Source: a virus. From it: 64,000 nt of DNA. Of this stretch, positions 3,601 to 61,053 are shown piece by piece. The notes under the pieces are model-generated. The model searched no databases and was not told the origin of the DNA. It saw only the letters and a program-made list of their open reading frames with translations. Where the stretch lies: IMG/VR virus record IMGVR_UViG_3300028837_000875, positions 1 through 64,000 of that record. One strand, 5' to 3'. The position numbers and the translations under genes are program-made. Positions within the stretch are counted from its first letter, which is position 1; each line of letters starts with the position of its first letter.

Positions 3601-3872
3601 AGAGTCTTAAACAGCAAGTAGCAGATTTGAAAGATGAAATTAAAAAGAACAAAACTCCTCTTCGCTTGAAGGCAGAACAGCTCCAAGCAAGAATATTAGA
3701 ACTTGAGAAAGAGAAGCTACACGTTGAATTAAAATTAGGTTCTGTACAGCGTGAGAATGCTGGACTCAAGAAAGAAGTAGAAAAGCAGTGCATGGGATTT
3801 GCAGATATTGAAAGAAAACGTGAAATGCTTAAGGAGAGTAAGGATGCAAGTGACAAACATTCAAGCATCTAA
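3543..3872 (+). CDS. Coiled-coil hypothetical protein, 109 aa
   Basis: ATG at 3543 follows GGAGGTGCTGA. Almost the whole length is a long charged coiled coil (for example LQARILELEKEKLHVELKLG). It overlaps the end of the upstream gene by 58 nt and the start of the thymidylate-synthase-like gene by 29 nt, both in different frames. Function unknown. Confidence 0.65.
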   Translation: MSFAKAQERKQKQIQAETLKSLKQQVADLKDEIKKNKTPLRLKAEQLQARILELEKEKLHVELKLGSVQRENAGLKKEVEKQCMGFADIERKREMLKESKDASDKHSSI

Positions 3873-4551
3873 TCTGAGTGATATTTGGTTCAAGCTACTT
3901 GATAAAGTAGTTGATAGCGGAAGAGTCTACGAAGTTGGAGATGGACCATACGCAGGAAAGAAAAGACTTGAACTTGAGTTTGCCGTACTCAATGTCCACT
4001 GTCCATGGCAAAAGCTTTGGCCTGACTTAGAGCCACCACTTTTTTCTATAGAAGATTTTGAAGAATATATTGATTGGCTTTTATCAGGAATGAAGAAAGA
4101 ATTCAAAAGCTATCGGCCAACAAAGGATTACGAGTTGCTGTTTGAATCTATTCCTGAATTCAGTGTAGTAAAAAATTTAGATATAGATTTTTCTCCAATT
4201 GGTTTGCTTATTGCCAAGTATAAACGCGATGGATTCAAAACAAATCGTGCTTGCATTGAGCTTGCAGACAAGTCGGATATTGCCAGGGCATTTCCTATTT
4301 GCATTAGATTGATTGATACAAAGGTATTGTATAACAGACTCCATTTCTTTGTATACTTTCGCTCTTGGGATTTGTGGAATGAATTCTCTTTTGATTTAGC
4401 GGTCCTTGAGCGTATTAAGCTTTACGTAGCTGAGCGTATAGGTGTTGAAAGCGGAGAACTTGTGGCTTGTTCGAAGGGCATCCACTTATACGAAAAGAGT
4501 TGGAAGAAAGCCGAAGAGATAGTTGGACGAGAGATTCAATTCAAACTCTGA
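3844..4551 (+). CDS. Thymidylate-synthase-family protein, predicted dCMP-type (Asn to Asp), 235 aa
   Basis: The start at 3844 follows GGAGAGTAAGG. The C-terminal half has the ThyA fold signatures: catalytic Cys153 in FPICIRLIDTK, the phosphate-binding Arg in YFRSWDLW (173-178), and the C-terminal SKGIHLYEKSW. At position 184 the sequence is SFDLA, where dUMP-specific synthases have P-F-N-I-A. In established enzymology this Asn selects dUMP, and Asp at this site is found in T4 dCMP hydroxymethylase and lets engineered synthases use dCMP. The predicted substrate is therefore dCMP, with methylation or hydroxymethylation undecided. It is a paralogue of the gene at 5281 (which keeps Asn), with the shared block KxDGFxTNxAC. 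Confidence 0.75.
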   Translation: MQVTNIQASNLSDIWFKLLDKVVDSGRVYEVGDGPYAGKKRLELEFAVLNVHCPWQKLWPDLEPPLFSIEDFEEYIDWLLSGMKKEFKSYRPTKDYELLFESIPEFSVVKNLDIDFSPIGLLIAKYKRDGFKTNRACIELADKSDIARAFPICIRLIDTKVLYNRLHFFVYFRSWDLWNEFSFDLAVLERIKLYVAERIGVESGELVACSKGIHLYEKSWKKAEEIVGREIQFKL

Positions 4552-4588
4552 TAGATGGTATGCAAAGCAAGTTCAGGAGGAATTAGAA

Positions 4589-5284
4589 TTGAAATTATAT
4601 CATGGGACAAGTGCCAAGCGAGTTTGGCAAATTACAAAAAAGGGTATACGTCCAAGAAGTCTAACTGGTAAATCTAACTGGAATGAAGTTCCAGAATTCA
4701 AATCAAGAAACGATATGGTATATTTGACTTCTTGCTATCCGCTTTATTTTGCTGTGTGCTGTACAGAAGGAAATAGAATAGGTATAGTTGAAATAGATAC
4801 AGACAAACTTGATGTCAATAAGCTGTTTCCTGACGAAGATGTTATTGCTCAAATTCTTTCGGAGCAAACGGGTGTTTCGTTAAAAGAAACACACTCAAAA
4901 GTTAAAGCAAAACTCTTGTATATGCACGACCAGTGGGAAACTTCGCTGCAAGCCATGGGCACTTGTTGTTATCACGGACTCATTCTTCCTGAAGCATTGA
5001 CGCGCTATGCGTTGATTGACTTGAAAGGCAGAGGACAATTGATGCTCAGCATGTTAGACCCTGCCATTGCTATTCGCAATTATCAAATTAAAGGAGAGTA
5101 TTATAAAGCTTTTGTTGCTTGGGTTTTTGGAGATAGAGAAATTCTGCCTCAGTATGAAGAAACGAAAATGTTTATTGATGCAGGTATTCCAGGATTGGAA
5201 AGGCAATTCAAGTTCTGGGAAGAACAGCAGTCAAATCGTAATGGAATTGTTGTCGTTGAACTCTCGAAAGGAAAGAAGAAATGA
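4589..5284 (+). CDS. ADP-ribosyltransferase-fold protein, 231 aa
   Basis: TTG at 4589 is preferred because AGGAGG lies at 4575-4580; the frame is open upstream but overlaps the previous gene. The N-terminus LYHGTSAKRVWQITKKGI followed by DMVYLTSCYPLYFAV matches the general pattern of ADP-ribosyltransferase-like folds (conserved His of the NAD site, then a beta-strand YLT and a helix), as in DarT/DUF4433-type or Tpt1-type proteins. The closest branch cannot be named. The position between two thymidylate-synthase paralogues and the macro-domain gene nearby suggest a nucleotide or DNA substrate; this is inference. The 3' end overlaps the next start (ATGA). Confidence 0.6.
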   Translation: MKLYHGTSAKRVWQITKKGIRPRSLTGKSNWNEVPEFKSRNDMVYLTSCYPLYFAVCCTEGNRIGIVEIDTDKLDVNKLFPDEDVIAQILSEQTGVSLKETHSKVKAKLLYMHDQWETSLQAMGTCCYHGLILPEALTRYALIDLKGRGQLMLSMLDPAIAIRNYQIKGEYYKAFVAWVFGDREILPQYEETKMFIDAGIPGLERQFKFWEEQQSNRNGIVVVELSKGKKK

Positions 5285-5991
5285 AAGTTGTTTCAATCAA
5301 TGCATTCGATTTAGATGACCTTTGGTTTAAGCTGCTTTGCGCTGTCATTGATTTTGGCCACATCTATACAATCACAAGAGGTTCATATGAAGGCCAGAAG
5401 CGACTTGAGTTTGATATGGTATACTTGCAAGTTGAAAAGCCAAGTAGTCAGATTATTCCTATTATTCCAGAAGGTATGAACATTCCGCCGCCGACTGATA
5501 TGGCATACGTAGAAAGATATATGAGTTATATTTTAAGTGGAAAGGAAGTAGAAGGTGAAGATTATACTTATGGAGAACGTTTGACAGAAGCGACTGAAGG
5601 TTCGGATGAAACGTTGAATCAAATACTTGAAGTAATTAGAATGTATAAAGAAGATGGTTTTGGTACAAATCAGGCGTGCATGGAAGTTGCTATGCCTTGG
5701 GATTTAATGATGGAATCTCCTCCTTGTTTGCGCTTGATTGATACTCGAATCAGATATGGCAAACTTCACTTCTTTGTATATTTTCGTTCTTGGGATTTGT
5801 GGGGAGGCCTGCCACCCAATCTTGCTGGCATTCAAAAGCTCAAGGAATTTATGGCCGAAGAAATTGGAGTAGAGGATGGCCAACTCTTTGCAGCATCAAA
5901 AGGATTGCATCTCTATGATTATAATTGGCCTCATGCTGAGCTAAGAACTGGAAAGAAGATTTCACTTGAAGGTAGGACAGAGGTTTCGTGA
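5281..5991 (+). CDS. Thymidylate-synthase-family protein, dUMP-type (Asn retained), 236 aa
   Basis: Paralogue of the gene at 3844. It has catalytic Cys149 in SPPCLRLIDTR, then YFRSWDLWGGLPPNLA with Asn180 at the pyrimidine-selecting position and an intact G-L-P-x-N motif, and SKGLHLYDYNW near the end. These agree with the archaeal-like, shorter ThyA group. The expected reaction is transfer of a one-carbon unit from methylenetetrahydrofolate to C5 of dUMP, giving dTMP or hydroxymethyl-dUMP. It overlaps both neighbours (ATGA, GTGA), so it is co-expressed with the ADP-ribosyltransferase-like gene. Confidence 0.8.
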   Translation: MKVVSINAFDLDDLWFKLLCAVIDFGHIYTITRGSYEGQKRLEFDMVYLQVEKPSSQIIPIIPEGMNIPPPTDMAYVERYMSYILSGKEVEGEDYTYGERLTEATEGSDETLNQILEVIRMYKEDGFGTNQACMEVAMPWDLMMESPPCLRLIDTRIRYGKLHFFVYFRSWDLWGGLPPNLAGIQKLKEFMAEEIGVEDGQLFAASKGLHLYDYNWPHAELRTGKKISLEGRTEVS

Positions 5992-6548
5992 TAGAAGCAA
6001 TCAAAACAAAAGAGCAAAGCGTAGAGCTTTTCAGAGCAGGCTACTTTGGCAATCGTGTGCGACAATGGAATACTCTCGAAGAGTTGGATGCGGACCCCTT
6101 TGATGGCTTAGTTGTATTACGGCAAAGAAGCCGCCCTGCTGGCGGTAGAGGCATAACTATCTATGATATTGAGAAGAAACACGCATCAAAGGTCCTAAGC
6201 TCTCAGGCGTGTATAGGACAGCCTATCAGTTCTTTCTATTTCAATGAAGCAATCATTCCATCTGACGTTTTATTTCAAGGCGAGATTTGCAGAACAATCA
6301 AAGGTTTGTACTTGCTTTATTCTACACTTCCAATGCACATGCACGATGCTTTGCTGAAAGAGCCAAAGCACGCCTTTGGATTGAAAGCCAGGTTGTTGAT
6401 GGAGTACTTCCTCGATTCTTCTGGCTTGATTTGTATTTATGAATTTCTTGAGCGATTTGATGACCATGTAGTGGAGTTTACTTGTTGCTCAAAATCGTTT
6501 GGTGATTTGGGCTGGAGAACTATCATTTGGGAATGTAGAGGATTTTGA
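5988..6548 (+). CDS. Hypothetical protein, 186 aa
   Basis: GTG start in a GTGA overlap with the second thymidylate-synthase-like gene, so co-translated with it. The N-terminus MIEAIKTKEQSVELFRAG is followed by WNTLEELDADPFDGLVVLR and a Gly/Arg loop (RPAGGRGITIYDI). There are two Cys at TCCSKSF and one in WECRGF near the end. No family is recognised. Its tight coupling suggests a role in the same nucleotide pathway. Confidence 0.65.
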   Translation: MIEAIKTKEQSVELFRAGYFGNRVRQWNTLEELDADPFDGLVVLRQRSRPAGGRGITIYDIEKKHASKVLSSQACIGQPISSFYFNEAIIPSDVLFQGEICRTIKGLYLLYSTLPMHMHDALLKEPKHAFGLKARLLMEYFLDSSGLICIYEFLERFDDHVVEFTCCSKSFGDLGWRTIIWECRGF

Positions 6549-6783: not shown

Positions 6784-7007
6784 TGAATGAAAAACTGGAG
6801 TTGCAGATAGCAAAAGGTAAGAGAGTCCTCAAAGATATGAAGGACTCTCTTGAGTTTCTTAAACATCCAGCTCAACTATTAGATGTAGTAGAAGAGCTTG
6901 ACGTTGTGAGAGCTTTTCTAACTTCAACTATTTCTGGTATGGAATTCTGGGTTCAAATGAAAATAGATGAATGGGAGGCTAAGACAGATGAAAAGTGGAG
7001 TGAATGA
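6783..7007 (+). CDS. Hypothetical helical protein, 74 aa
   Basis: Starts at a TAATG overlap with the upstream gene. Predicted to be all helical (ELQIAKGKRVLKDMKDSLEF), with an acidic C-terminus (WEAKTDEKWSE). It overlaps the start of the MazG-like gene. Function unknown. Confidence 0.65.
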   Translation: MNEKLELQIAKGKRVLKDMKDSLEFLKHPAQLLDVVEELDVVRAFLTSTISGMEFWVQMKIDEWEAKTDEKWSE

Positions 7008-7518
7008 TATAACGTCAGAAAACTATGTTGAGAATGTTGTTAGAAGTGAGTCAGTTGATTTCCCGAAAATCAGAGAAAGACTGAAAGAGAAAAGACTTAT
7101 TCGATTGCTTCATTGTGCCATGGGACTCTGCACAGAAGCTGGTGAGTTCATGGACCATTTGAAGAAACATATTTTTTATGGAGCAGAATTAGACCCAGTA
7201 AACATGATAGAAGAACTGGGCGACAATCAATGGTATGTTGGTGTTGGCGTTGATGAACTTGAAGCTAAGTTCAATGAAATGTTGCAAAAGAATATTGATA
7301 AGCTTCGAGCAAGGTATCCTGAAAAGTTCGAGCCAGAGCAAGCAATCAATCGTGACTTAAAAAAAGAAAGAAGCATTCTTGAAAAGAGCAAATCAAAGAA
7401 AGGAATTCCATGTCCAGCTTGCGGCTCTCTGATAGCTGAGGATGCTGCTCAATGTTGGAAGTGCAAGATTGAATTTACGGAGGATAATAAAGATGAATCA
7501 GGTAGAGACAAAAACTAA
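6988..7518 (+). CDS. MazG-like nucleotide pyrophosphohydrolase with C-terminal zinc ribbon, 176 aa
   Basis: The start at 6988 has GGGAGG about 10 nt upstream. Residues about 35-90 carry the all-alpha NTP pyrophosphohydrolase pattern: CTEAGEFMDHLKKH followed by MIEELGDNQWYVGV, the E-x-x-E ... E-x-x-D metal-binding residues of MazG. A zinc ribbon (CPACGSL ... CWKC) is appended at the C-terminus. The family hydrolyses dNTPs or modified nucleotides to monophosphates. Here it could feed the thymidylate-synthase-like enzymes encoded just upstream. Confidence 0.75.
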   Translation: MKSGVNDITSENYVENVVRSESVDFPKIRERLKEKRLIRLLHCAMGLCTEAGEFMDHLKKHIFYGAELDPVNMIEELGDNQWYVGVGVDELEAKFNEMLQKNIDKLRARYPEKFEPEQAINRDLKKERSILEKSKSKKGIPCPACGSLIAEDAAQCWKCKIEFTEDNKDESGRDKN

Positions 7519-14572: not shown

Positions 14573-15262
14573 ATGCCACCTAAGGGCTATAAACAACATG
14601 AGGAGACAAAAGAAAAAATAGCTGCTTGGAATAGAGGTAAGAAAAGAAGTACTCAGACCAAAGCAAAGCTATCAAAAGCTTTGAAAGAGAAATGGAAGGA
14701 TAAAGTTTATCGAAAGAAGTTGATTAAAAAAGCACAAGGACGGAAGTTGAGTACAGAGCATAAGAAAAAAATTTCTCAGTCTTTGAAAATAACAAGAGCA
14801 GAAAAGAAGTTTAGTTCTGAACGCAACAAGAAAGTTTCTAAAGGCTTGAAGCAATTTTGGGCAAGTCTTACATCTCAAGAAAAAACTGAACGCTTGAAAG
14901 GATTTATACAGGCGGGCGCAAGAGCAAGAGGATTTTTCAATACTAAAATAGAACAAATAACAGAGGCATTTCTTAAACGTATAAAAGTTGAGTATACAAA
15001 GCAGAAGATGTTTTGTTCTGGAAATAGAAGAGCAATTGGTGACTTCTATCTTCCAAAATTCAATTTGGTATTGGAGTGTGATGGAGAATATTGGCATTCA
15101 GTGTTAGAACAAAAACAAAAGGATAAAATGAAAGATAGATTTTATCATAGTCTTGGACTGAAAGTCATAAGACTAAGCGAAAAGGAAATCATTAACAATC
15201 TACGATATTCTTTTTTGAAAAAACTGCGATTGATTCTTGTGAAAAGAAAAGGAGTGGCCTAA
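14573..15262 (+). CDS. Freestanding homing-endonuclease-like protein (NUMOD repeats plus Vsr-like nuclease), 229 aa
   Basis: The N-terminal 110 residues repeat short K/S-rich helices of the NUMOD3 DNA-binding type (HEETKEKIAAWNRGKK, TQTKAKLSKALKEKW, TEHKKKISQSLK). The C-terminal domain has IGDFYLPKFNLVLECDGEYW, then a QKxKDxxKDR run and VIRLSEKEI, the pattern of Vsr/EDxHD-type nucleases. Such enzymes cut DNA lacking the insertion and spread by repair. It sits between head genes and ends in a TAATG overlap with the next gene. Confidence 0.75.
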   Translation: MPPKGYKQHEETKEKIAAWNRGKKRSTQTKAKLSKALKEKWKDKVYRKKLIKKAQGRKLSTEHKKKISQSLKITRAEKKFSSERNKKVSKGLKQFWASLTSQEKTERLKGFIQAGARARGFFNTKIEQITEAFLKRIKVEYTKQKMFCSGNRRAIGDFYLPKFNLVLECDGEYWHSVLEQKQKDKMKDRFYHSLGLKVIRLSEKEIINNLRYSFLKKLRLILVKRKGVA

Positions 15263-56414: not shown

Positions 56415-56453
56415 AGATATAAAGAGAATTCAATTAAGCAGTAGGAGCAGTTG

Positions 56454-57758
56454 ATGAAGGACAATCTGGTTATCGGTGGAGGCATATCAGGCCTCATTTT
56501 TTGCTATTACAATCCTGAGTTTTATTTGATTACAGATTCTCTTGGAGGCTTGCTCAAACAAGAGGGTAAATTTGGAGTAATGACTTTATGGGATACTCCA
56601 GAAACTCGAAAGCTCTTAAAAGATTTAGATATTGAAGTCAAGCCGTACAAGGCAGAGATTAGATATTTCTTCAATGGTAAAATTTATGAAGTGGCTCCTG
56701 ACGTTTTGCGTCGTGAATACATTCAAAAAAAGATGGGGCAGCTTGCACACAAAATTGACTTTGCAGATTTGGCTTTGTCTACTGACGAGACGAATTATAT
56801 TCCTGCTCTCAAAGTTGACTTTGATGTGCTCATGGAAAAGTTGCTGCACGAAGTTGAGAGCCGAAAGAATTATATGATAGCTACAATTTCAGAAATTCGA
56901 GATGATTCAATTACTCTTTATGATATGAAGAGTCCTTCAAGAATAATGAAATATAAAACGCTTGTCTCTACTATCCCAGCATTTCTATTTTGGTTGATGT
57001 GGAAAGGACGAGAGTGCAGAGAAGTTTGTGTTCCAGGAGAATTTGCTTTCAGTCCAACTACTACAGTTTCTATGAAAGCTCCTCATAAAAATTTGATTTC
57101 ACTCTTTGATGAAATGAACGGAATGATTCCAGCGTATATCTATTATCTTGATAACTCAAGATTTCATAGATTCTCGCACAGCTCTCAAGGCTGTTACGCT
57201 TTTCAGTTTGCAGGAGAGATTTCAAAGGAAGAGATTGCAATATATCTTGAAGTAGATGAATCTGATTTAGAATATCGAGTCGAGAAGATAGGGCAGTTCG
57301 TTACGCACAAGGGTAACATTCCTCCACGCAATATTATGTTTCTTGGAAGGCATGCGCAATGGGATTATAAAGTTAAGGTCCAGGACATTGTGCGTGTCTC
57401 TCGATTCTCTAAGTTCATGCTTGCTGATATGAGGAGCAGGCAATCAAGATTCAATAAGAACTTTATGGACTTCAATTCGCTGAGCTTTGAAGATAGACAG
57501 CGATTGACTGAGAAGTGGATTCTGTATGTGCAGGCAGAGTTGACCGAACTCTTGGACGAAACAAACTGGAAGTTGCATCGGCCTGGAAAGGAGATTGAAA
57601 AGAGCAAGATATTAAATGAGTGGATTGATTCTTTGAAGTTTTTATTAGGTATTGCAGATATTTGGGGCTTTGACAATGCGGAGATATTCAAGGCGTTCCA
57701 CGATAAGAGCGACTTTGTTGAGAAACGTTTTCAGGAGGAAGAGAAGAATGGGAAATGA
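56454..57758 (+). CDS. FAD-dependent oxidoreductase fused to an all-alpha dUTPase/dCTPase-like domain, 434 aa
   Basis: ATG at 56454 after GTAGGAGCAG. The N-terminus NLVIGGGISGLIFCYY is the GxGxxG dinucleotide-binding motif of amine-oxidase/UDP-galactopyranose-mutase-like flavoproteins; this domain covers about 330 residues. The last 100 residues (YVQAELTELLDETNWKLHRP ... EWIDSLKFLLGIADIWG) match the dimeric dUTPase/MazG superfamily, with E-x-x-E and E-x-x-D metal sites. Such domains hydrolyse dUTP or dCTP to monophosphate. The fusion and the overlapping ThyX-like gene suggest a pyrimidine-modification step. Confidence 0.7.
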   Translation: MKDNLVIGGGISGLIFCYYNPEFYLITDSLGGLLKQEGKFGVMTLWDTPETRKLLKDLDIEVKPYKAEIRYFFNGKIYEVAPDVLRREYIQKKMGQLAHKIDFADLALSTDETNYIPALKVDFDVLMEKLLHEVESRKNYMIATISEIRDDSITLYDMKSPSRIMKYKTLVSTIPAFLFWLMWKGRECREVCVPGEFAFSPTTTVSMKAPHKNLISLFDEMNGMIPAYIYYLDNSRFHRFSHSSQGCYAFQFAGEISKEEIAIYLEVDESDLEYRVEKIGQFVTHKGNIPPRNIMFLGRHAQWDYKVKVQDIVRVSRFSKFMLADMRSRQSRFNKNFMDFNSLSFEDRQRLTEKWILYVQAELTELLDETNWKLHRPGKEIEKSKILNEWIDSLKFLLGIADIWGFDNAEIFKAFHDKSDFVEKRFQEEEKNGK

Positions 57759-58683
57759 GTTTGAGTCAATCACAGAGTTCCATGGCAAGAAAATGTTGAA
57801 TGCATTTCATAAAGGAGAGAAGCCGAAAACAGATTTCAAAGATTCTTCGGATTCTGTTAGAGTTGCTTTGCTTAATTATTCTCCAAGTGTATACGAGGAC
57901 ATGTTCTGGTTCATCATGGGCTCGTATGGAAACGAAGCCAACAAGAGAAAGCAGTTCACTCCTTCAGAGGAAGATATTGAAAAGGTTATTGAAGCTTGCT
58001 TGAATCGTGAAGCAATGCCGTTAGCTCTTGAAATTCCGAAGTTTACTTTCGTAATATGGGGCATTGATAGAATCATCACTCACCAGATAGTCAGAAACAG
58101 AATTGGTGTTGTGTATTCTCAACACTGTACGGGAGACAATGACATACGTCATGTAGATTTTCTCCTGCCACATCGAATGATAGGAGCAAACACAGAGGAC
58201 GAAGTAGATTTCAGGATGCGAGTGAAGGAATGGCATAGAGTTGGCAAGGCACTCTACGCAGAAGGCATTGACGTCCATGGATATTCCATGCAGGACATGA
58301 GGCACATGATGCCGCAGGACGTGGATACGTACGTAATGATGAGTTGTAATTACATGATGCTTCAGAACTTTGTCGGCCGGCGTCTCTGCTCAAATGAGAC
58401 GATGCAGATTCAGCGAGTAGCAGAATTGATTAAAGAGGAAGTGACAAAGGTCTATCCGTTTCTTGGTCGTCATCTAATGAGCAATTGCGATAGAGCAAAG
58501 AGATGTCACTTCAAGAAGAATGGAACAATCTTTGGAGGTTCTGTTTATTATCCTTGCGGCAAGTATCCATGGAGCAGCAAAGAAGCTCCTGACCCGGAGG
58601 CATTCATTCACCCTATGACTTCAGAAGAAATCAGACAGGTAGAGAATCCGGCTTACAGACATTTAGAATCTGAGCAGGATTAG
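57748..58683 (+). CDS. thyX: ThyX-like flavin-dependent thymidylate synthase homologue, 311 aa
   Basis: ATG at 57748 with AGGAGG at 57733-57738, overlapping the previous gene by 11 nt. The core ITHQIVRNRIGVVYSQH (residues 110-126) corresponds to the ThyX motif, but the canonical R-H-R is R-N-R and the following spacing is altered. The C-terminal part has CNYMMLQNFVGRRLCSNETM, the usual second signature region, and a short Cys-rich end (NCDRAKRCHF ... YPCGKYPW). The enzyme would methylate or otherwise modify dUMP with FAD. The altered motif suggests a changed substrate or reaction. Confidence 0.7.
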   Translation: MGNEFESITEFHGKKMLNAFHKGEKPKTDFKDSSDSVRVALLNYSPSVYEDMFWFIMGSYGNEANKRKQFTPSEEDIEKVIEACLNREAMPLALEIPKFTFVIWGIDRIITHQIVRNRIGVVYSQHCTGDNDIRHVDFLLPHRMIGANTEDEVDFRMRVKEWHRVGKALYAEGIDVHGYSMQDMRHMMPQDVDTYVMMSCNYMMLQNFVGRRLCSNETMQIQRVAELIKEEVTKVYPFLGRHLMSNCDRAKRCHFKKNGTIFGGSVYYPCGKYPWSSKEAPDPEAFIHPMTSEEIRQVENPAYRHLESEQD

Positions 58684-58835: not shown

Positions 58836-59375
58836 ATGATAATTTCAGTAGAAGGACCTGACGGATGTGGAAAGACAAGCTTTGCAAAAGAGCTTGAAAA
58901 GAAAACAGGCTTGCCAATAATCGAGTACAACTTTCAGATTGTTGGAGGCAATAGAAAAGAAGAACTTGCATATATTCAAATGCTTTCGTTTGTTGCCATC
59001 TCTTTTCATTTTAATTTCATCCGTGATAGGCATCTAATGTCTAATATGGTTTATGCATCTATATTTTCTGATGATTGTTATTGGCGTAAATATCTTGAGC
59101 TAATAGAAAGGACTCAAATACTCATTGCATATATTCACGTTCCAGCAGAAGAATTGATTAAGAGAATCAAGCAGCGTGAAGCAAGTGATGGAATTAAAGA
59201 GCCTGAAGATATACTTCTAAACTTGTTGGTGGCACATGAAAGTTTTGAAACTGCTTATTTTGAAATCAAGAAAAGATTTCCAGAGAAGATAATCAAACTT
59301 GATGGCTTGCTGACAATTGAGGATATGGTCAGTGATTATTTCAAGAAAAGACTCCAGCAAGAAAGGCAAACATGA
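58836..59375 (+). CDS. Thymidylate-kinase-like dNMP kinase, 179 aa
   Basis: ATG at 58836 after AGAGGATTCAATCC. MIISVEGPDGCGKTSFAKEL is the P-loop of the dTMP-kinase family; RDRHLMSNMVYAS carries the D-R motif, and IHVPAEELIKRIKQREAS is a LID-like region with Arg. It phosphorylates a deoxynucleoside monophosphate. In phages with modified bases, such kinases act on the modified dNMP, as T4 gp1 does. It overlaps the radical SAM gene (ATGA). Confidence 0.75.
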   Translation: MIISVEGPDGCGKTSFAKELEKKTGLPIIEYNFQIVGGNRKEELAYIQMLSFVAISFHFNFIRDRHLMSNMVYASIFSDDCYWRKYLELIERTQILIAYIHVPAEELIKRIKQREASDGIKEPEDILLNLLVAHESFETAYFEIKKRFPEKIIKLDGLLTIEDMVSDYFKKRLQQERQT

Positions 59376-60427
59376 AACCTTATACTGAAAAGAAATTCGA
59401 GAAAATCTTTCCTTGGTTTGAAGCAATCAATCTTGATTTGCTGAAGGCACCAGTTGCAGTAAGACTTTTGGTGACAGATAAGTGCGCTTGCAAATGTCAC
59501 ATGTGTACGCACTGGAAGATGAAAAAGTTTTACTCGCTCGATTATAAAACGTTCAGTTCAATTGTGCTTGCTTGTCAGAACAATGGAACTCAATCTATGT
59601 TTCTTTCAGGAGGAGATGTCTTTTCTTGGGAGTGCTGGGAAAGATTTTTGAAAGATGAAGAAATTACAATTGCTGCTCTGACTGTTACGCCATTGATAAT
59701 TCCAAAAAGCTTTGACAAAGATTTGCTCAAGAGACTCAAATGGCTACGAGTTTCTTTTGATGCAATCAAGAGTGAAACGTTCAAAAAAATCAGAGGCGTA
59801 AACGCGTTGTCATCTGTAAAGCATGACTTGTCTTATATCCTCGCTAACAAATTGGTAGAGGATATCGGCATGACAACTGTTTTGCAGAAGGATAATTTTT
59901 CAGAGATTATAGAGATGGGTGAATACTTCGTTAACTTGGGCATCAAGAGATGGATAGTTCAGCCAGTCAATTATAATCCAAGGCTCAGCTTAACTCCTGA
60001 AGCAATACAAATGCTTGGCTATCAGTTGAGCAAGAAGTTTGGTGAAGCCATACCAACAAACAATTTCGATGTCCTTCAAAGCGATTTCAGTCTTTGGAAT
60101 TCTACTCACAATCTGCCTTGCATAATTCCGCGCATGGAAGCATTCATTGATACAAGACTCAGGGTATGGCCTTGCTGCAATCTTGCTCAAGATGCGCACG
60201 GAGATGAAGAAAGAGCAGAGAGATTGAAAATGGGTACGTTTATACAAGGCGCAAGTGCCGGTGAATATTTCCTTGAGCTTTGGCGTGAACGTAGAAATCT
60301 GCTCGATAAATTTACTGACTTCAAAGACATTCATCCTTTATGCAAGCAGACATGTAAGTTCAAATACTTCTACTATAATCTTGGCTTTGATTGGTGCAGA
60401 AAAAACAGAGAAGCTATTTATATTTGA
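59372..60427 (+). CDS. Radical SAM enzyme with SPASM/twitch-like C-terminus, 351 aa
   Basis: ATG at 59372 overlapping the kinase stop. VRLLVTDKCACKCHMCTHWK contains C-x3-C-x2-C that binds the [4Fe-4S] cluster; SMFLSGGDVFSWECW is the SAM-binding GGE-like motif, and LRVSFDAIKSETFKKIRG follows. C-terminal cysteines (LPCIIPR, WPCCNLA, HPLCKQTCKF) indicate a second cluster domain. The substrate is not predictable. Co-translation with a dNMP kinase and a ThyX-like gene suggests nucleotide or base modification. Confidence 0.75.
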   Translation: MKPYTEKKFEKIFPWFEAINLDLLKAPVAVRLLVTDKCACKCHMCTHWKMKKFYSLDYKTFSSIVLACQNNGTQSMFLSGGDVFSWECWERFLKDEEITIAALTVTPLIIPKSFDKDLLKRLKWLRVSFDAIKSETFKKIRGVNALSSVKHDLSYILANKLVEDIGMTTVLQKDNFSEIIEMGEYFVNLGIKRWIVQPVNYNPRLSLTPEAIQMLGYQLSKKFGEAIPTNNFDVLQSDFSLWNSTHNLPCIIPRMEAFIDTRLRVWPCCNLAQDAHGDEERAERLKMGTFIQGASAGEYFLELWRERRNLLDKFTDFKDIHPLCKQTCKFKYFYYNLGFDWCRKNREAIYI

Positions 60428-60438
60428 TAGGATGTAAT

Positions 60439-61053
60439 GTGCCTCAAATTTCAGAAAGAATGCTGATTAGGAAACACCGATTTCATTTGGAGCGTTCTAT
60501 TCAAGAATGTTCAGAGTGCAGCATACATAGAAACGAAGAGAATATACAATCCAAATCTATGGGTAATGGCAATTGCTATGACCCTGATATTTTTTTCATA
60601 GGCTTAGCTCCTTCTCAGAATAGACGGCCGCTCAAGCAAGATAAGCATGGCAACAAAATTCCTCTAAGAACATTTGAGTATTTAGTAGGTGGAAGATTTA
60701 GAAGATTGCTCAAGAGCTTAGGACTATATGAGAGAAGCTATCTAACAAATCTACTCAAGTGCAGCACTCCTGATAATAGAAAACCAAAACACACAGAAAT
60801 AAAAAATTGCTCAGTATGGTTTCACAAGGAATTCAATATGCTATCTCCCAGAGCCATTGTCCCTTTGGGCAATGTTGCAAGACGTGCTCTCGAAAGAACG
60901 ATGCAAATGACAGATGACAACAGAGGATTTTTATTTGGCGTAGAGGTAATCGTCATCAATTGCTTTCATCCGAATTATTGTTATAGCTATGGTGGAATAA
61001 CTGAGGAACGTTATGCCGAGCTATTATTAAAAGTAGAGAAAGAGTTAGAGTGA
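60439..61053 (+). CDS. Uracil-DNA-glycosylase-superfamily protein, 204 aa
   Basis: GTG at 60439 is preferred, with ATAGGATGTAAT upstream; the frame is open to 60391 inside the previous gene. Features of family-4 UDG: a Cys pair (CSECSIH) near the N-terminus, DIFFIGLAPSQNRR (motif A), SYLTNLLKCSTPDNRKP, IVPLGNVARRAL and VIVINCFHPNYCY (motif B). It would remove uracil or another altered base. The Cys spacing fits an iron-sulphur form only partly. The stop overlaps the polymerase start (GTGA). Confidence 0.65.
   Translation: MPQISERMLIRKHRFHLERSIQECSECSIHRNEENIQSKSMGNGNCYDPDIFFIGLAPSQNRRPLKQDKHGNKIPLRTFEYLVGGRFRRLLKSLGLYERSYLTNLLKCSTPDNRKPKHTEIKNCSVWFHKEFNMLSPRAIVPLGNVARRALERTMQMTDDNRGFLFGVEVIVINCFHPNYCYSYGGITEERYAELLLKVEKELE

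Follow-up and report, generated by a model that had tools for sequence, protein, structure and literature searches.

A candidate dCMP-directed duplicate of an archaeal-type thymidylate synthase, adjacent to its Asn-type sister in a ThyX-bearing virus

The window analysed here consists of bases 1-64,000 of an 88,571-base virus record and harbours two paralogous genes of the thymidylate synthase (TS) family, referred to below by their first base as 3844 and 5281. Genes 3844, 4523, 5281 and 5988 share a strand, the end of each overlapping the start of the next. The following features were annotated in this region:

3844..4551, + strand: fast-evolving TS paralogue, Asp184 in the substrate-selecting column (open reading frame (ORF), Pfam, NCBIfam, alignment)
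4354..4400, + strand: YFRSWDLWNEFSFDLA block, DNA, with Asp184 (exact pattern match)
4523..5284, + strand: ORF that separates the two TS genes and overlaps each of them; resembles an ADP-ribosyltransferase by eye only (LYHGTS...VYLTS) (ORF call)
5281..5991, + strand: slow TS paralogue with Asn180, of archaeal type and presumably acting on dUMP (ORF, Pfam, NCBIfam, alignment)
5779..5825, + strand: YFRSWDLWGGLPPNLA block, DNA, with Asn180 (exact pattern match)
5988..6548, + strand: uncharacterised protein, conserved TS neighbour in other viruses (gene context)
6967..7518, + strand: MazG-like nucleotide pyrophosphohydrolase (Pfam MazG 6e-6, PHROG 8e-40)

Both TS genes start with ATG and encode proteins of 235 (3844) and 236 (5281) amino acids, which share 43 % pairwise identity. 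The Pfam model Thymidylat_synt (PF00303) matched both above its curated cut-off of 24.3 bits, with 31.4 bits for 3844 and 44.0 bits for 5281. The best NCBIfam model for each was TIGR03283, the archaeal/methanogen-type TS, with 62.7 and 96.8 bits, respectively. Both scores fall below the curated cut-off of 174.55, and by this cut-off the two proteins are relatives of archaeal-type TS, not members. They resemble archaeal-type TS and its virus-borne and bacterial relatives in their short length and in the PPC(L/I)R and FRSWD blocks, and both have the catalytic Cys along with R-S-x-D and H-x-Y of the nucleotide site. Asp184 of 3844 and Asn180 of 5281 share one column within an ungapped FRSWDLW-(5)-N/D-LA block, making the alignment at this site unambiguous. 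The first-pass annotation had reported this Asn/Asp difference between the paralogues, and its coordinates, residues and quoted motifs were all found to be correct from the ORFs, profile matches and pairwise alignment.

A profile built from the two sequences recruited 31 viral loci and 12 loci from bacterial metagenome-assembled genomes (MAGs). Asn is invariant at the selecting column among these ~40 relatives, and 3844 alone has Asp. The Asp form was also sought at DNA level in 2.9 million viral contigs (IMG/VR), with a pattern checked on the window and on loci; a single stretch emerged, in a second record of this virus that matches the window at 100 % over its first 16 kb. Across 395 genomes of one bacterial phylum, that of one of the MAGs, the pattern found nothing. 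Orthologues of 3844, ORF 4523 and the terminase were sought directly as well, and again only the second record of this virus was returned. In phage GenBank records, 3844 had no tblastn match and the 2-8 kb region no blastn match. Because the relatives all carry Asn and the pattern scans gave only the same virus, the Asp form appears to be a singleton lineage. Replacement of Asn by Asp at position 177 of E. coli TS (EcTS) switches the enzyme to dCMP, and an Asp there goes together with modified cytosine in phage DNA (PMC8670742, PMC5175136). On account of Asp184, dCMP is the likeliest substrate of 3844.

Phylogenetic analysis paired 3844 with 5281 (support 91/81), their end branches measuring 3.82 and 0.27, respectively, although the tree output marks the placement of the very long 3844 branch as uncertain. 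The simplest reading is that a duplication took place in the lineage of the window virus and was followed by rapid change of the 3844 copy. Among the 73 columns conserved in at least 90 % of the relatives, 5281 keeps 69 and has changed 4, whereas 3844 keeps 49 and has changed 24. Retained in 3844 are C153, R173, S174, D176, H214 and Y216, equivalent to C146, R166, S167, D169, H207 and Y209 of EcTS. It deviates at the YTYG loop (EcTS Y94-G95), at the positions three and one before the Cys, at G180 and P182, and at the selecting Asn. All 6 alignable nucleotide-site residues are thus kept against 6 changed cofactor and loop positions (Fisher p ~0.002, for residue classes that were picked after seeing the data). 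The YTYG motif, kept by nearly every relative, reads YRPTKDYE in 3844 and is broken. The Gly is absent; the Tyr may have gone too, or Y96 may provide it after a four-residue insertion. An initial reading that the catalytic Tyr is lost was dropped, since the pairwise alignment permits Y96 as its replacement. With 24 of 73 conserved columns changed and Asp replacing a changed Asn in a fraction of ~0.11, the rough chance of an Asn-to-Asp change at the selecting column is ~3.5 %, so that Asp184 by itself is suggestive, not overwhelming. The frame of 235 amino acids is intact and the G+C content by codon position is like that of other viral genes, which argues against recent decay of 3844.

An AlphaFold2 model of 3844 predicted a TS fold with confidence (mean pLDDT 86.5, pTM 0.84), with the broken YTYG loop poorly modelled (pLDDT 52-66). 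PDB matches of the model were TS structures, among which N229D of L. casei TS with dCMP (1njc). CMP hydroxymethylase MilA (5jnh) and the phage dCMP hydroxylase AfhB (9iqu) were also matched.

3844 was further aligned with T4 gp42, its Klebsiella and Aeromonas homologues, the Microbacterium Glamour and Chako proteins, RB69p048, Triscuit gp66, and proteins of Gordonia Pons, a Serratia phage and Stenotrophomonas phage DLP4. All of these Asp-type phage enzymes have the selecting Asp, and all but DLP4 (Pro) have Thr after the catalytic Cys. In 3844 this residue, at EcTS position 147, is I154; position 147 is a second substrate discriminator (PMC8670742). The signature of T4 hydroxymethylase consists of Asp three residues before the Cys (Asp145) and Ser-x-Tyr (PMC6400193). 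The Asp of this signature is lacking in 3844, which has F150 three before the Cys and neither Asp nor Glu there, while its Ser/Thr-x-Tyr part falls in the poorly modelled loop in which Y96 may supply the Tyr. In the T4-like and Glamour/Chako proteins Tyr-Gly is present and this -3 position is Asp. Use of Asp at -3 as a hydroxymethylase mark within the archaeal-type subfamily was rejected, as 27 of 30 Asn-type relatives carry it, among them chromosomal genes that are the sole TS found in their MAGs. Some features are common to 3844 and the cytosine-type enzymes: a Pro two positions ahead of the selecting column, lost in 3844, is mostly missing from the Asp-type phage enzymes as well, and Ile directly before the Cys is shared with Glamour/Chako.

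T4 dCMP hydroxymethylase gp42 thus resembles 3844 in its superfamily, Cys nucleophile, selecting Asp (D179), R-S-x-D and H-x-Y, but 3844 has no equivalents of Asp145 and Thr149 and no intact Tyr-Gly loop (Ser94 and Tyr96 in T4), and it appears to have arisen separately, from archaeal-type TS. A 5-hydroxy-dCMP synthase of the TS superfamily has also been reported, with RB69 p048 as a candidate gene and AfhB (PDB 9iqu) as a structure (PMC13390438). Asp-type enzymes may therefore yield products other than 5-hydroxymethyl-dCMP. This synthase shares with 3844 the TS fold, Asp at the selecting site and several altered cofactor-site residues, but RB69p048 retains Tyr-Gly, Glu three before the Cys and Thr after it, all three of which are missing in 3844. 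The first-pass annotation had predicted a cytosine-specific enzyme. Its residue logic holds for Asp184 but draws on this one residue, and Ile at position 147, F150 and the broken YTYG loop do not agree with it. The proposed substrate is plausible though under-determined.

Members of the 5281 family were found in 12 MAGs among housekeeping genes such as gyrB, obg and prmA. In 10 of these the family member is the only ThyA/ThyX found (completeness of the MAGs not being established), so an ordinary member of this family is very probably a true TS, and the earlier assignment of 5281 as uracil-specific is well supported. None of the 22 viral relatives tested, many of them fragmentary records, showed a ThyX or second TS. 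Three viral relatives have a glycosyltransferase (Glycos_transf_1, GT4-conflict) directly upstream of TS (L010:8630-9997, L016:6867-8189 and L020:8718-9992), suggesting that some viral members may serve base modification. SPO1 dUMP hydroxymethylase (gp29) is matched by 5281 in tblastn with 34 % identity over 116 residues; unlike the gp29 group, 5281 is of archaeal type and has Leu, not Asn, after the Cys. The product of gene 5988 had no Pfam or PHROG match. In 12 other viral contigs with a relative of it (L027, L066-L076), a TS-family gene is the neighbour in 9, two of which are apparent near-copies. In 3 of the 9 a MazG gene follows, in the order TS, 5988-family, MazG that is also seen in the window. 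Except in L027, these neighbouring TS genes are SPO1-dUMP-hydroxymethylase-like with Asn; SPO1 gp29-like genes of other phages are accompanied by a 5988-family gene and MazG, as is 5281.

Further genes related to pyrimidine metabolism were found towards the other end of the window:

56451..57758, + strand: fusion of an N-terminal GGGISG region, FAD/NAD-like by eye, with dUTPase_2 at the C terminus (Pfam dUTPase_2 3e-6, residues 326-412)
57652..58683, + strand: ThyX-like flavin-dependent thymidylate synthase, third thymidylate-forming enzyme (Pfam Thy1 1.1e-20)
58836..59375, + strand: thymidylate/deoxynucleoside-kinase-like, candidate dNMP kinase (Pfam Thymidylate_kin 4e-8, dNK 8e-8)

The ThyX-like protein scored 74.7 bits against the Thy1 cut-off of 24.8. 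It has an unusual RNRIGVVYSQHCTGDNDIRH stretch where the RHR motif is usual, and its start codon overlaps the preceding, adjoining GGGISG/dUTPase_2 gene. A divergent radical-SAM-like protein (59372-60427; Pfam 6e-4, below cut-off) adjoins the kinase and ThyX genes. The virus also encodes DNA polymerase III alpha, a ribonucleotide reductase interrupted by an HNH-bearing intein (L003:9941-13201, genome 73941-77201) and two different proteins of the uracil-DNA-glycosylase superfamily (window 60391-61053 and L003:9369-9944, genome 73369-73944). Glycosyltransferase, carbamoyltransferase and dCMP deaminase genes were absent among the ~96 proteins scanned from this possibly incomplete record. The modified-cytosine genome predicted by the first-pass annotation is accordingly hinted at by Asp184, but gene content adds no support and no base-decorating enzyme was found. 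A PvuRts1I-like match, a possible 5hmC-related nuclease, was below cut-off and was discarded as the NUMOD3/DUF559 homing-endonuclease-like ORF 14573-15262.

The ORF lying between the TS genes had no Pfam match, and its structure model, made without an alignment, was unusable (pLDDT 34). The product of 2407-2928 matches the DarG antitoxin macrodomain (4e-6, far below cut-off), and together with 4523-5284 it may possibly form a split DarT/DarG-like pair. A DUF488-N3a protein (1665-2057) is encoded near the macrodomain and the candidate ADP-ribosyltransferase. A weak NMN-transporter (PnuC-like) match, below cut-off, was found in the virus with the DarG-like macrodomain protein (L004:423-977, genome 80423-80977).

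TS is an obligate dimer, the active sites of which share residues across the interface. Because the dCMP assignment of 3844 rests on one residue, this protein may act on dCMP, serve as a partner without catalysis of its own, or be a duplicate in decay. As a partner, 3844 would form a heterodimer with 5281 or act as a nucleotide sensor, tuning or inhibiting 5281, and Asp184 would be one of many relaxed positions. The excess of changed conserved positions over 5281, the broken YTYG, the lost Gly and Pro of the selecting loop and the linkage of both genes in a single overlapping string are in line with such a role. It is nevertheless rather unlikely in our judgement, given that neither the catalytic Cys nor any alignable nucleotide-site residue has been lost, that Asn to Asp is the specific change of cytosine enzymes and that several other losses of 3844 occur in Asp-type enzymes too. 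Decay of a duplicate, with Asp184 as a neutral accident, would explain the very long branch (3.82 vs 0.27) and the failure to find orthologues; drift to Asp at this column has an estimated chance of ~3.5 %. The intact frame, normal codon-position composition, confidently predicted fold and intact nucleotide site make it quite improbable.

A different possibility concerns 5281 and overlaps with the preferred reading on 3844: both proteins may modify pyrimidines, 5281 as a dUMP hydroxymethylase (giving modified thymine) and 3844 in a cytosine or related reaction, with ThyX making dTMP. The 5988-family gene beside SPO1-like dUMP hydroxymethylase genes in other phages and the glycosyltransferases upstream of TS in three viral relatives point in this direction, as does ThyX, which renders a second TS redundant. 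However, the position of the family as the only ThyA/ThyX in most of the MAGs indicates that its ordinary member is a real TS, and a glycosyltransferase was not found among the ~96 scanned proteins of the window virus. We regard modification by both proteins as unlikely.

The best explanation, for which we see about an even chance, is that 5281 is the ancestral TS and that 3844 is a duplicate predicted to have become a dCMP C5 enzyme. 5281, which belongs to a conserved module that also comprises the 5988 protein and the MazG pyrophosphohydrolase, would represent the ancestral virus-borne archaeal-type TS or another dUMP C5 one-carbon enzyme. After duplication in the lineage of the window virus, 3844 retained the TS fold and its six nucleotide-site and catalytic residues while the selecting Asn became Asp and the cofactor and catalytic loops were remodelled. 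ThyX in the same genome would free a TS copy for another role. We take the genes, fold, residues, duplication, gene order and ThyX as shown, and infer for 3844 a dCMP substrate, an activity, a product and a DNA modification as follows: Asp184 would hydrogen-bond N3 and N4 of cytosine and C153 would attack C6 of dCMP, C5 of which would gain methyl, hydroxymethyl or hydroxyl. A dNMP kinase, for example 58836, would phosphorylate the resulting nucleotide, which would then enter DNA, while MazG or the dUTPase-like protein may trim unmodified precursors. With the Tyr-Gly loop broken and Asp145 absent, its chemistry may differ from that of T4 hydroxymethylase. It is only tentatively proposed that a cytosine-specific C5 enzyme with such possibly different chemistry evolved separately from archaeal-type TS by duplication in one virus.

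Pairs of Asn-type and Asp-type TS are already known, T4 td and gp42 being one such pair and Triscuit gp66 and gp67 another. The tandem genes of Microbacterium phage Triscuit (L081:2018-3723) are adjacent, like 3844 and 5281, with MazG and thymidylate kinase genes nearby. In contrast to 3844 and 5281 they are not a recent duplication, as the Asn-type gp67 is a canonical bacterial TS and the Asp-type gp66 (HFQDDV) belongs to another widespread family. Matches to gp66 were found in 294 phage records. What appears to be new is an Asp-type member born within the archaeal-type family, beside its slow parent, in a virus that bears ThyX. Independent of the activity of 3844, the conserved order of TS, 5988-family and MazG genes singles out a protein family, so far unstudied, that partners phage enzymes modifying pyrimidines. 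If 3844 is cytosine-specific, one virus runs three TS-like enzymes (ThyX, Asn-type and Asp-type). If it acts on dCMP, the switch from dUMP to dCMP arose separately in the archaeal-type TS family, which otherwise has the Asn form only among the sequences found here, and the Asp form would mark a phage lineage with possibly modified cytosines. 5281 beside 3844 would then provide a natural before/after pair for a change in substrate choice and one-carbon chemistry.
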